Part shown: positions 27,246 through 30,918 of the stretch, piece after piece
Position numbering within the stretch: position 1 is the stretch's first letter
Layout of the letters: each line of letters opens with the position of its first letter
NCBI RefSeq assembly: GCF_001887775.1
Contig: NZ_CP015519.1
Location: forward strand, 1,674,001-1,738,000
Reading direction: 5' to 3'
From: Syntrophotalea acetylenivorans
Lineage (GTDB): Bacteria > Desulfobacterota > Desulfuromonadia > Desulfuromonadales > Syntrophotaleaceae
DNA: 64,000 nucleotides
Translations under genes and position numbers: made by a program
The notes under the pieces: generated by a model
Told to the model about the DNA's origin: nothing
Databases searched by the model: none
Seen by the model: only the letters and a program-made list of their open reading frames with translations

Positions 27246-28892
27246 ATGTTTCAGTGGCCAAAAACAAATGATGCTCTGGGCACCGTCAACCGCGGCGAGC
27301 CCTGTGAGTCGGGACTCTGCACCCTCTGCACCGCAGACTGCAAGGGCAAGTGTGAAACCTGGTTATCCTGCCTGATCGGCCGCAAGCTCCTTTATCCGCG
27401 CAGTTTCGGTCGCACCACCTCGGGCTCGGGCAATGTCTCCGCGGTTGGCGTCGGCTATCATGCGCTGCGCATCCAGGGCTATGCCTATGGCGCCCACGGA
27501 CTGCCGTCCGGCCTGTCCAACGATCCCGATGACTGCATCTTTCCCAATGTCAGCGTCGAGACCGAATTCGGTGCCGAGGTAAAAACCCGCTGCCGCCTGC
27601 CGATCATGACCGGGGCGCTGGGCTCGACCTTCGTTGCCGCGGATTACTGGAACTCCTTTGCCGTCGGCGCAGCACTGTGCGGTTTTCCCATCGTGGTCGG
27701 TGAAAATGTGGTGGGGGTCGACAAGGAGGCCCAGATCGTCAACGGCAAGGTGACCACGTCACCGGAACTCGACCGCCGCATCGACTCGTTTTTCCGTTAT
27801 TACGACGGTTACGGGGCGATTATCGTGCAACTGAATGTCGAAGACACCCGCAACGGCGTCGCCGAATATCTGATCAAAAAATACGGCGATCGGGTGATCA
27901 TCGAGTTGAAGTGGGGCCAGGGGGCCAAGGATATCGGCGGTGAGATCCAGGTCACCACCCTGGAATACGCCCTGTTCCTCAAGAAACGGGGATACGTGGT
28001 CGACCCGGACCCCGGCGACCCCGTGGTCCAGGAAGCTTTTAAGAACCGCGCCATAACCTCCTTTGCCCGCCACAGCCGCCTGGGGGCCACAAACCTGGAC
28101 AGCGCCGCACAGGTCAGAGAAGAGTTCCTCACCAGCGTCGCCTATCTGCGCCAACTGGGGTTCAAGCGTATCTCTCTGAAGACCGGCGCCTACGGCATGG
28201 AGGCCCTGGCCCTGGCCATCCGCCTGTCCGCCGAAGCCGGCCTCGACCTGCTGACCGTGGACGGCGCCGGCGGCGGGACCGGCATGAGCCCCTGGAACAT
28301 GATGGAACACTGGGGAATACCTTCGCTCACCCTCCACGCCAAAACTTATGAGTATTGCGCCCTGCTGGCGCAAGGCGACCAACAGGTCCCGGACATCTCT
28401 CTGGCCGGAGGCTTTGCCCGCGAGGACCATCTCTTCAAGGCACTGGCGCTGGGGGCTCCGTACGCCAAGCTGGTGTGCATGGGCCGGGCGCCAATGATCG
28501 CCGGCTTCCTCGGCAACAACATTCAAGGCGTCTTCCAGCCGGACAACAGAGCCGAGCTCAAAGGCTCCTGGGAGGAATTGCCGACCACCGTCAAGGAGGC
28601 AGGAATCTATCCCGAAGAGATTTTCGCCGGTTGGGAATCGGTCAAGAAAAAAGTCGGCGCGGCAGAGATGAAAAATATTCCCTTCGGCGCCGTGGCCATG
28701 TACGGCTATGCGGACAAGCTCGCCTGCGGTCTGCAGCAATTCATGGCCGGAGCCAGGAAATTCAATCTGACCGAGATCTGCCGGGACGATCTCATGGCAG
28801 CAAACCGTGAAACCGCTGCGGAAACGGGCCTGCCTTTCATGACCACGGCCCAGGACGACACAGCCCGCCAAATTATTGCTGGAAAATTCTAG
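27246..28892 (+). CDS. FMN-binding glutamate-synthase-family protein (GltB-like)
   Basis: A 548-residue protein of the archaeal-type glutamate synthase large-subunit family (synthase domain only). An N-terminal cysteine cluster (Cys20, 25, 28, 32, 36, 42) could hold an iron-sulfur centre. The FMN/TIM-barrel part follows, with VDGAGGGTGMSPWNMMEHWG (about residue 340) and SLAGGFAREDH, and a domain near the end contains FGAVAMYGYADKLACGLQ. It has no glutaminase domain. Glutamate synthase activity is not certain, since several such proteins have unknown substrates. GGGGGAGA precedes the ATG. Transcription is divergent from the efflux operon, and an unusual hairpin follows. Confidence 0.82.
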   Translation: MFQWPKTNDALGTVNRGEPCESGLCTLCTADCKGKCETWLSCLIGRKLLYPRSFGRTTSGSGNVSAVGVGYHALRIQGYAYGAHGLPSGLSNDPDDCIFPNVSVETEFGAEVKTRCRLPIMTGALGSTFVAADYWNSFAVGAALCGFPIVVGENVVGVDKEAQIVNGKVTTSPELDRRIDSFFRYYDGYGAIIVQLNVEDTRNGVAEYLIKKYGDRVIIELKWGQGAKDIGGEIQVTTLEYALFLKKRGYVVDPDPGDPVVQEAFKNRAITSFARHSRLGATNLDSAAQVREEFLTSVAYLRQLGFKRISLKTGAYGMEALALAIRLSAEAGLDLLTVDGAGGGTGMSPWNMMEHWGIPSLTLHAKTYEYCALLAQGDQQVPDISLAGGFAREDHLFKALALGAPYAKLVCMGRAPMIAGFLGNNIQGVFQPDNRAELKGSWEELPTTVKEAGIYPEEIFAGWESVKKKVGAAEMKNIPFGAVAMYGYADKLACGLQQFMAGARKFNLTEICRDDLMAANRETAAETGLPFMTTAQDDTARQIIAGKF

Positions 28893-28912: not shown

Positions 28913-28958
28913 CACACCCTTGGTGAAAAGTCTGACGAACTTTTCACCAAGGTGTGTG
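28913..28958 (+). terminator. Hairpin after the GltB-like gene
   Basis: CACACC(C)TTGGTGAAAAG pairs with CTTTTCACCAAGGTGTG with one bulged base and a 9-nt loop. No strong T tract follows, so it may end transcription weakly or protect the mRNA 3' end. Confidence 0.55.
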
Positions 28959-29087
28959 GTTGAACCCTGTTTACAGACAAACAGTCGTTGGATAATTAAA
29001 AGATCGGTATTTACAATATTTAGCGTGCATCCGTGGCCTCAACTTCAATCAGGCAAAACAGATAACTACATAAAATCATTATTTTTC

Positions 29088-29116
29088 TTGACCTTTTATG
29101 TATAGCCCGCTAAACT
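29088..29116 (+). promoter_or_regulatory. Promoter for the riboswitch and GGDEF-EAL gene
   Basis: TTGACC (29088-29093), a 17-nt spacer and TAAACT (29111-29116) give a good sigma-70 match. Predicted transcription starts about 29123, only a few bases before the aptamer, which supports both calls. Confidence 0.75.
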
Positions 29117-29130
29117 AAGAAACTACTCAT

Positions 29131-29209
29131 TCCTCCGATAAAAGCAAACCTGAAGCGATTCAGGGACGCAAAGCCACGGATCCCAACGGGACCGCCGGGC
29201 CGCCGAAGA
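29131..29209 (+). ncRNA. GEMM-I family cyclic-dinucleotide riboswitch (A20 variant)
   Basis: The conserved core is present: GCAAACC, a P2 stem CCTGAA-GCGA-TTCAGG with a GNRA loop (29149-29164), then GGGACGCAAAGCC. A P3 stem is built from CGG/CCG and TCCC/GGGA, and GCCGGGCCGCCG follows. By alignment with the known Vc2 RNA, the base before the GCAAACC guanine (position 20) is A. G20 goes with cyclic di-GMP, and A20 is typical of the GEMM-Ib group that senses 3',3'-cyclic AMP-GMP in Geobacter-type bacteria. A terminator lies 8 nt downstream and the regulated gene is 29299-30918. Confidence 0.88.
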
Positions 29210-29216
29210 GAAACAG

Positions 29217-29254
29217 ATCCCATCTTTGGCCATCGCGCAAAGATGGGATTTTTT
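29217..29254 (+). terminator. Intrinsic terminator (riboswitch expression platform)
   Basis: A perfect 12-bp stem ATCCCATCTTTG/CAAAGATGGGAT with a 9-nt loop is followed by six T. It stands between the aptamer and the coding sequence, so ligand binding would decide whether transcription reads through. Confidence 0.9.
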
Positions 29255-29298
29255 GTTTATCGCAATTACCGTAGTCTTTTAATCCGGCGCCCCAAATT

Positions 29299-30918
29299 AT
29301 GAATCGCCCCCTCTTACATTCAAAGACCGCCAGACCGGCACTCTTTTACGCCAGGCAAACGGGTTGGATTTTGTGTGCCCTCATTACGCTCATCTACGCT
29401 CTTCTTTACTTGCTTCCTGACGGGACAATGCCCCAGCTGCTTTCTCCTTCCCACCTCAGCGCAAGCCTGATAATTCTGCTGGCCGGCCTGCTCACGGGAC
29501 AATGGTTACGAAATCATCATCTAACCAAAACCGCGGAAGAACACCACAGCACGGAGGCTGAATTTAAGCGATTGGCGCTATACGATCAGCTCACCGGCTT
29601 GCCGAATCGTTCTCTCCTCCGGGACCGCTTCGAACAATACCTGGCGGAAGCAAAACGATTCGACCATCTGTTGGGGGTAGTTTTTCTCGACCTTGACCGT
29701 TTTAAGCACATCAACGACTCCCTGGGGCATGCGGCTGGAGATACGCTCTTGCAGATGGCTGCGCAGCGCATGCAGGGCTGCCTACGTGATACAGACACCG
29801 TGGCCCGTTTTGCCGGCGATGAATTCGTCATTATCCTGTCCAGCTTTCGCGACATGCAAAACCTGCCGCACATCGCCACAAAATTGCTGAACACTCTTGC
29901 TGAGCCTTATCAGCTTGAAGGCCAAGAGGTTCTTTCGTCAGCCAGCCTCGGTATTTCTACTTATCCGCAAGACGGTACCGGCATAGAGCAACTGATGCGC
30001 AACGCCGATACCGCCATGTACGAAGCCAAAGAAGCCAACGGAAATACTTACCGCTTATTCTCCCGGGAGATGGAGCGCAAACTGAGCCAACGTCTGGAGA
30101 TGGAAACCAGTCTGCGTCTGGGTCTGCACCGGGAAGAGTTCTTTCTCCTCTACCAGCCCCAGTTCGACATGCGCAATCAACAACTGGTCGGAATCGAGGC
30201 GCTGGTCCGCTGGAATCATCCTGTCCGAGGCCTGCTCACTCCGGAGAGCTTCATCGACCTGGCCGAAGAGACCGGCCTCATCGCTCCCCTGGGGGATTGG
30301 ATTCTGCGCGAAGCCTGCAAGCAATGGCAACAGTGGCAAAAAAGCGACGGCCAACCACTACGCCTGGCAATCAATCTCACCAACCGACAGTTCCAAAACG
30401 CCAATTTGGCAAAGGATATTCAGGCCATCATCGAGGAAGCCGGCCTTCCCCCTCAGAGCCTAGAGCTGGAAGTTACCGAAGCAACCCTGATGCAGAATGC
30501 TTCCTCAGCCGACAAATTCCTGGGGCAGCTTAAAGAACTCGGTGTGCAGCTAAGCATCGACGACTTCGGCACCGGCTACTTCTCCTTGGCCTACCTGCAA
30601 CACCTGCCCATCGACCGTCTGAAAATTGATCCTTCTTTTGTACAAGGAGGCCCCGGTGACAGTAACCACGCTTCAATCGTGACAACCATTATCGACCTGG
30701 CCCGAAACATGGACCTTGAGTTGATCGCCGAAGGGGTCGAGTCGGCCAGCCAAATCAAGTTTCTTCTCGAAAAAGGTTGTCACCTTGGCCAAGGCTATTA
30801 TTTTTCCGAGCCTCTGGATGGCGACGGCATTGGTAATCTGATCAACGGCCTTCCGGAACCGCCGCAAAAAGCCAGAGATCTTGATTTTCGTCTTCCCAGC
30901 GATGCCCGCACTTACTGA
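29299..30918 (+). CDS. Membrane-anchored GGDEF-EAL protein
   Basis: A 539-residue dual cyclic di-GMP enzyme. Two membrane helices (about residues 20-42 and 52-70) precede a GGDEF domain (about 90-250) and an EAL domain (about 265-515). The GGDEF site reads AGDEF, which often stays active, with the inhibitory RxxD (RDTD) five residues before it. HIND and AGD residues are those of a guanine-guanine cyclase, not the Ser variant of cAMP-GMP (Hypr) enzymes. The EAL catalytic set is complete: EALVRW, INLTN, LEVTE, DDFGTGYFSL, LKID and EGVES. No clear ribosome-binding site is seen. The gene sits behind the riboswitch-terminator. Confidence 0.93.
   Translation: MNRPLLHSKTARPALFYARQTGWILCALITLIYALLYLLPDGTMPQLLSPSHLSASLIILLAGLLTGQWLRNHHLTKTAEEHHSTEAEFKRLALYDQLTGLPNRSLLRDRFEQYLAEAKRFDHLLGVVFLDLDRFKHINDSLGHAAGDTLLQMAAQRMQGCLRDTDTVARFAGDEFVIILSSFRDMQNLPHIATKLLNTLAEPYQLEGQEVLSSASLGISTYPQDGTGIEQLMRNADTAMYEAKEANGNTYRLFSREMERKLSQRLEMETSLRLGLHREEFFLLYQPQFDMRNQQLVGIEALVRWNHPVRGLLTPESFIDLAEETGLIAPLGDWILREACKQWQQWQKSDGQPLRLAINLTNRQFQNANLAKDIQAIIEEAGLPPQSLELEVTEATLMQNASSADKFLGQLKELGVQLSIDDFGTGYFSLAYLQHLPIDRLKIDPSFVQGGPGDSNHASIVTTIIDLARNMDLELIAEGVESASQIKFLLEKGCHLGQGYYFSEPLDGDGIGNLINGLPEPPQKARDLDFRLPSDARTY

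Follow-up and report, generated by a model that had tools for sequence, protein, structure and literature searches.

Which dinucleotide is read by the leader RNA that precedes a GGDEF-EAL gene of Syntrophotalea acetylenivorans, and does the ligand turn that gene on or off? The host genome (G000) is a single contig of 3.22 Mb, of which we analyzed a stretch of 64,000 nucleotides (hereafter the window; positions 1,674,001 to 1,738,000 of NZ_CP015519.1). The riboswitch interval lies on its + strand, between a glutamate-synthase-like gene (27246-28892) and the GGDEF-EAL gene (29299-30918). A sequence-only reading of this interval had described a GEMM riboswitch and a likely sensor of cyclic AMP-GMP.

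The leader RNA and its signals

The following features were identified, with positions counted from the first letter of the window:

29088-29116, + strand: sigma-70-like promoter, TTGACC and TAAACT separated by 17 nt (consensus scan, 9 of 12 matches)
29134-29208, + strand: GEMM-I (c-di-GMP-I clan) aptamer of the A20 type (RF03167, 59.7 bits; RF01051, 57.8 bits)
29143, + strand: base equal to G20 of Vc2, here an A, the specificity position (family-model alignment, Vc2 numbering)
29149-29164, + strand: P2 stem CCUGAA/UUCAGG with a GCGA (GNRA) tetraloop (sequence and fold)
29173-29200, + strand: P3 stem-loop (family alignment and fold)
29202-29209, + strand: strand A, GCCGAAGA, holding C92 (29203) and the P1 3' strand (8-bp complement to 29223-29230; in the predicted minimum free energy fold of transcripts ending at 29236-29244)
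29217-29228, + strand: terminator 5' arm, AUCCCAUCUUUG, overlapped by strand T (perfect 12-bp stem with 29238-29249)
29238-29255, + strand: terminator 3' arm (strand H; stem partner 29238-29249, 12 bp) and U-run (T-run to 29254)
29299-30918, + strand: regulated gene, encoding a 539-aa GGDEF-EAL protein (Pfam GGDEF 170 bits, EAL 249 bits)

The GEMM assignment was confirmed by covariance-model search, the check that the sequence-only reading had proposed: at 29134-29208, RF01051 (GEMM-I / c-di-GMP-I) scored 57.8 bits against a cut-off of 35, and RF03167 (c-di-GMP-I-GGC) scored 59.7 bits, barely over its cut-off of 59 (E 1.5e-11 for the whole window). The clear core and tetraloop stem of that reading are also borne out, as the aptamer has P2 with its GNRA tetraloop, P3, and the conserved GCAAACC / GACGCAAAGCC core; its P1 is short and contains mismatches. 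The terminator is as clear as had been described, with a perfect 12-bp stem and a U-run spanning 29217-29255, and the predicted fold of the 141-nt leader is better by 3.85 sd than those of its shuffles, 0 of 200 of which were equally good. A promoter had been placed just before the aptamer, and a site is indeed present there, which would put the transcription start at about 29122; the scan that found it is weak evidence, having returned 3 sites where 0.6 are expected from shuffles. Further upstream, 3' of the glutamate-synthase-like gene, the window contains a strong inverted repeat (CCCTTGGTGAAAAG...CTTTTCACCAAGG, 28914-28962) that has no clear T-run and is conserved in L063.

Position 20 and the candidate ligand

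Next, we numbered the aptamer on Vc2, using as anchor the published list of Vc2 contacts (G14, C15, A16, C17, A18, G19, G21, C46, A47, A48, A49 and G50; PMC7288161). Positions 13-22 of the window copy then read C G A U A A A A G C, and other core bases fall at 29144 (G21), 29169 (C46), 29170 (A47) and 29203 (C92). The base equal to Vc2 position 20 is therefore A rather than G, as had been noted from the sequence, and the copy has the GEMM-Ib combination of A20 with A47 and C92 (A29143, A29170 and C29203). The use of A20 as a mark of selectivity comes from work in Geobacter, where an A20G change in a GEMM-Ib switch turned its selectivity to c-di-GMP (PMC6456294). Position 20 is necessary in the known cases, yet other bases tune selectivity. 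We compared 12 A20 switches of this bacterial family, in which positions 14, 17, 18 and 20 are invariant and positions 16 and 19 vary freely. The solved cGAMP riboswitch contacts its ligand through G8, A9, A11, A12, A14, A41 and C75, and, with an offset of 6, the four invariant positions equal contacts G8, A11, A12 and A14 (PMC6274999).

A source of the putative ligand was sought among the 39 GGDEF hits of the genome. Exactly one of them is clearly of the Hypr kind and keeps its active site intact (FKLINDSRGHLAGS...RYGGDEF): the position of PleD D344 is a Ser, within GHxxGS, and the GGDEF motif is retained:

L050:851-2221 (G000:C1:1302850-1304220), adjoining hisS: Hypr GGDEF protein of 456 aa, receiver-GAF-GGDEF, with GHLAGS and GGDEF

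Its closest solved relative is the GGDEF domain of Geobacter GacA (6d9m, 5e-51; PleD, 2e-34). A further GGDEF-like domain, encoded at G000:C1:3097359-3097664 (L055), also has Ser at the specificity position (YGYQAGS), but its active-site motif is degenerate (GGDDY). At a match threshold of 1e-70, a GacA orthologue is present in 52 of 56 genomes of the order, and the Ser is kept in all 50 orthologues recovered. The four genomes with no match at this threshold are G030, G033, G044 and G052; no GEMM RNA was found in G030 and G052, G033 has two GEMM RNAs with G20 and one odd copy (L216) that reads A at position 20, and G044 has two, both G20 when read with C21. Our A20 and G20 counts leave out an automatic classification of all loci, which misreads C21 types by one base. 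Three other genomes (G015, G016 and G018) have the orthologue, yet no GEMM RNA was found in them. Since GacA is nearly universal in the order, comparing its presence with that of A20 has little power, and the orthologue is permissive for a cyclic AMP-GMP reading, not diagnostic of it.

Taken together, the A20 mark, the invariant contact positions and the Hypr GGDEF encoded in the genome make cyclic AMP-GMP a very probable ligand of the window switch. This supports the sensor proposed in the sequence-only reading, with A20 found in 12 of 12 A20-class switches of the family while positions 16 and 19 vary. The host genome has seven GEMM-I RNAs over the cut-off, five with A20 (L001, L002, L003, L005 and the window copy, L006) and two with G20 (L004 and L007), so that one cell probably has riboswitches for each of the two messengers, c-di-GMP and cyclic AMP-GMP. 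Downstream of the A20 copies lie another GGDEF-EAL gene, with a degenerate GGDEF (NGDEF) and an intact EAL (L001, G000:C1:2876126-2876204), an operon encoding a FIST protein (L002) and one for outer-membrane efflux / phosphonate binding (L005). Of the two G20 copies, L004 is followed by genes for a phosphonate-binding protein and a sensor kinase, and L007 by a chemoreceptor gene. L003 (G000:C1:889496-889571, minus strand) has A20 and a terminator, yet the 550 nt that follow contain no clear gene; a UvrD-like helicase starts after them, and L003 is possibly a lone leader or a small-RNA-like element. A degenerate GEMM-like RNA, possibly decayed, lies at G000:C1:431965-432047 on the minus strand (L008; RF01051 23.5 bits, RF03167 27.7 bits).

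Direction of control and alternative readings

The direction of control, left open in the sequence-only reading, was assessed from the expression platform. Strand T (UCUUUGGC, 29223-29230), the inner half of the terminator 5' arm, pairs with strand A over 8 bp, including one G-U, and the terminator 5' arm is thus complementary to the aptamer 3' strand, as in OFF switches of the Cd1 type. In predicted folds of the growing transcript, the A:T helix, the putative antiterminator, is the minimum free energy structure until about nine bases of the terminator 3' arm are out; from then on the terminator is favored, by 2 kcal/mol at first and by up to 9 later. Since the terminator of the full-length RNA is predicted to be 8-9 kcal/mol better than the A:T form, switching would have to be kinetic. 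An A:T helix of 6-8 bp occurs in 11 of the 12 A20 switches compared in the bacterial family (L001, L002, L003, L005, L006, L207, L192, L193, L195, L196 and L198; the exception is L213 of G005, and the relation was also seen by eye in L218), a recurrence that partly reflects shared ancestry and does not amount to twelve independent observations. Among control terminators of the window, a 6-bp complement to an A strand arose by chance in 3 of 26.

These features point to a ligand that turns the terminator on and the gene OFF. Without ligand, strand A would pair with strand T once T is transcribed, which would delay the terminator and allow transcription to continue into the gene. With ligand bound, strand A, whose C92 would face the guanine of the ligand, would be held in the aptamer and P1, and strand T would be free to form the T:H terminator. 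Overall, we favor with some confidence a GEMM-Ib-type A20 riboswitch that most likely binds 3',3'-cyclic AMP-GMP and exerts OFF transcriptional control over the GGDEF-EAL gene that follows.

Other readings differ from this one in the ligand or in the sign of control. The same OFF architecture could respond to c-di-GMP, or to both dinucleotides, as plain feedback on the GGDEF-EAL enzyme that it precedes. The regulated gene does encode a c-di-GMP enzyme, sister genera have G20 GEMM RNAs before GGDEF-EAL genes (L220-L224), and the many standard GGDEF domains of the genome mean that c-di-GMP is surely present. However, A20 is kept in the relative G001 and in every A20-class switch of the family, the host retains G20 in two other GEMM RNAs and it encodes a Hypr cyclase, and we consider c-di-GMP feedback rather unlikely. 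It is very improbable that the RNA belongs to the c-di-GMP-I-GGC variant class, with an altered or unknown ligand. RF03167 is the top-scoring Rfam family (59.7 against 59), but the consensus of that model has G20 and G47, which we read as its diagnostic bases, whereas the window alignment has A at both positions, and membership was rejected on this ground. RF03167 is also over its cut-off in 48 of 58 relatives, with G47 in no copy read, which suggests that its score reflects a general resemblance among Desulfuromonadales RNAs and not the variant. The Rfam label, although the best score, thus names the wrong subclass and is misleading.

An ON switch for cyclic AMP-GMP, as in Geobacter pilM and pgcA, in which the ligand prevents the terminator, has precedent in G. 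sulfurreducens, where every GEMM-Ib gene tracked by RNA-seq drops upon gacA deletion (PMC6456294). In pilM of G. metallireducens, however, the aptamer 3' strand belongs to the terminator, so that bound aptamer and terminator are mutually exclusive (PMC9262584). In the window, the aptamer 3' strand does not lie within the terminator stem: the stem at 29217-29249 leaves the aptamer intact, the shared strand being T and its competitor A. Geobacter-type ON logic was accordingly rejected as the main reading, given predicted folds in which this terminator is wholly downstream of the aptamer, and we regard it as distinctly unlikely.

The regulated gene, its relatives and known systems

The N-terminal part of the 539-aa protein includes a hydrophobic stretch, and the closest solved relative of the protein is MorA (4rnh). 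Its GGDEF part has AGDEF, an I-site of the form RxxD and, in GHxxGD, the customary Asp, which makes it a domain of the c-di-GMP type, not Hypr. The EAL motifs searched for are all intact (EALVR, NLTNRQF, ELEVTE, DDFGTGY, LKID and IAEGVES; GGDEF and EAL motif positions 163, 172, 300, 359, 389, 421, 441 and 476), and the protein could plausibly both make and degrade c-di-GMP; we infer that the switch would affect c-di-GMP accordingly. No clear Shine-Dalgarno sequence was seen for the gene at 29299-30918. Riboswitch, terminator and gene are conserved in the one close relative found for this locus (G001, the MAG Desulfuromonadales bacterium C00003107), whose protein is 78% identical. The orthologue in that MAG (G001:C106:6133-7746) has an in-frame TGA near its C-terminus. 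In G007, from another genus, the orthologous gene is preceded by a remnant of the aptamer 5' half only (ACAATAGCAAACCTG), and no terminator was seen before it.

Full-length relatives of the gene that follows L001 occur in G004 (61%), G007 (48%) and G009 (48%); all three have a GEMM RNA at the corresponding position and share the divergent transporter gene on their upstream side. At this syntenic GGDEF-EAL locus, the copies of G000 and G004 (genus g1; L001 and L218) have A at position 20, and those of G007 and G009 (the neighboring genus g4; L220 and L221) have G. A terminator follows the aptamer in G000 and G004; none was found in L204/L220 of G007, and the expression platform thus changed too. 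If A20 and G20 mean what they do in Geobacter, the predicted ligand changed at one syntenic locus. Other arrangements were seen among the relatives: two identical tandem G20 aptamers lie 228 nt apart in G004 (L203/L212, G004:C315:1897-2203), and G20 GEMM RNAs before GGDEF-EAL genes in G012, G013 and G008 (L222-L224) have an A-complementary CUUCGG in the 3' and not the 5' arm of the terminator, a different switching layout.

These patterns raise the broader proposal, about evenly balanced in our judgment, that cyclic AMP-GMP riboswitches of this family have been rewired to OFF and control GGDEF-EAL genes of c-di-GMP turnover, with orthologous riboswitches swapping G20 and A20 at one locus between genera. 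If so, cyclic AMP-GMP would directly control transcription of a c-di-GMP enzyme. In Geobacter the known connection has the opposite direction, c-di-GMP inhibiting GacA via its I-site (PMC6456294), so that a two-messenger loop would be closed if cyclic AMP-GMP in turn controls c-di-GMP enzymes. Depending on the expression platform, aptamers of one class could then exert control of opposite sign, and the A20/G20 orthologous pair at one syntenic locus would be a natural test of how riboswitch specificity evolves.

The window switch resembles the Geobacter GEMM-Ib (3',3'-cGAMP) riboswitches (pgcA/GSU1761, Gmet_0970 and pilM; structure 4YAZ) in its aptamer fold, in A20 with A47 and C92, in a genome with a GacA-type Hypr cyclase, and in the use of a transcription terminator as platform. 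The window switch differs from them in a terminator that does not include the aptamer 3' strand, and in its target: a c-di-GMP enzyme takes the place of the cytochrome, pilus or surface genes controlled there. Its predicted logic is OFF, whereas the Geobacter switches with cyclic AMP-GMP as ligand act as ON switches (PMC9262584, PMC6456294). The c-di-GMP-I riboswitch Cd1 of Clostridioides difficile matches the prediction for the window in its OFF logic, its antiterminator A:T opposed to a terminator T:H, and a terminator compatible with the bound aptamer (PMC9262584), but has G20, c-di-GMP as ligand and a longer spacer before the terminator. Thus, the aptamer class and its ligand are already known; what departs from the accounts of Geobacter consulted here is the predicted OFF logic and the choice of a c-di-GMP enzyme as target.
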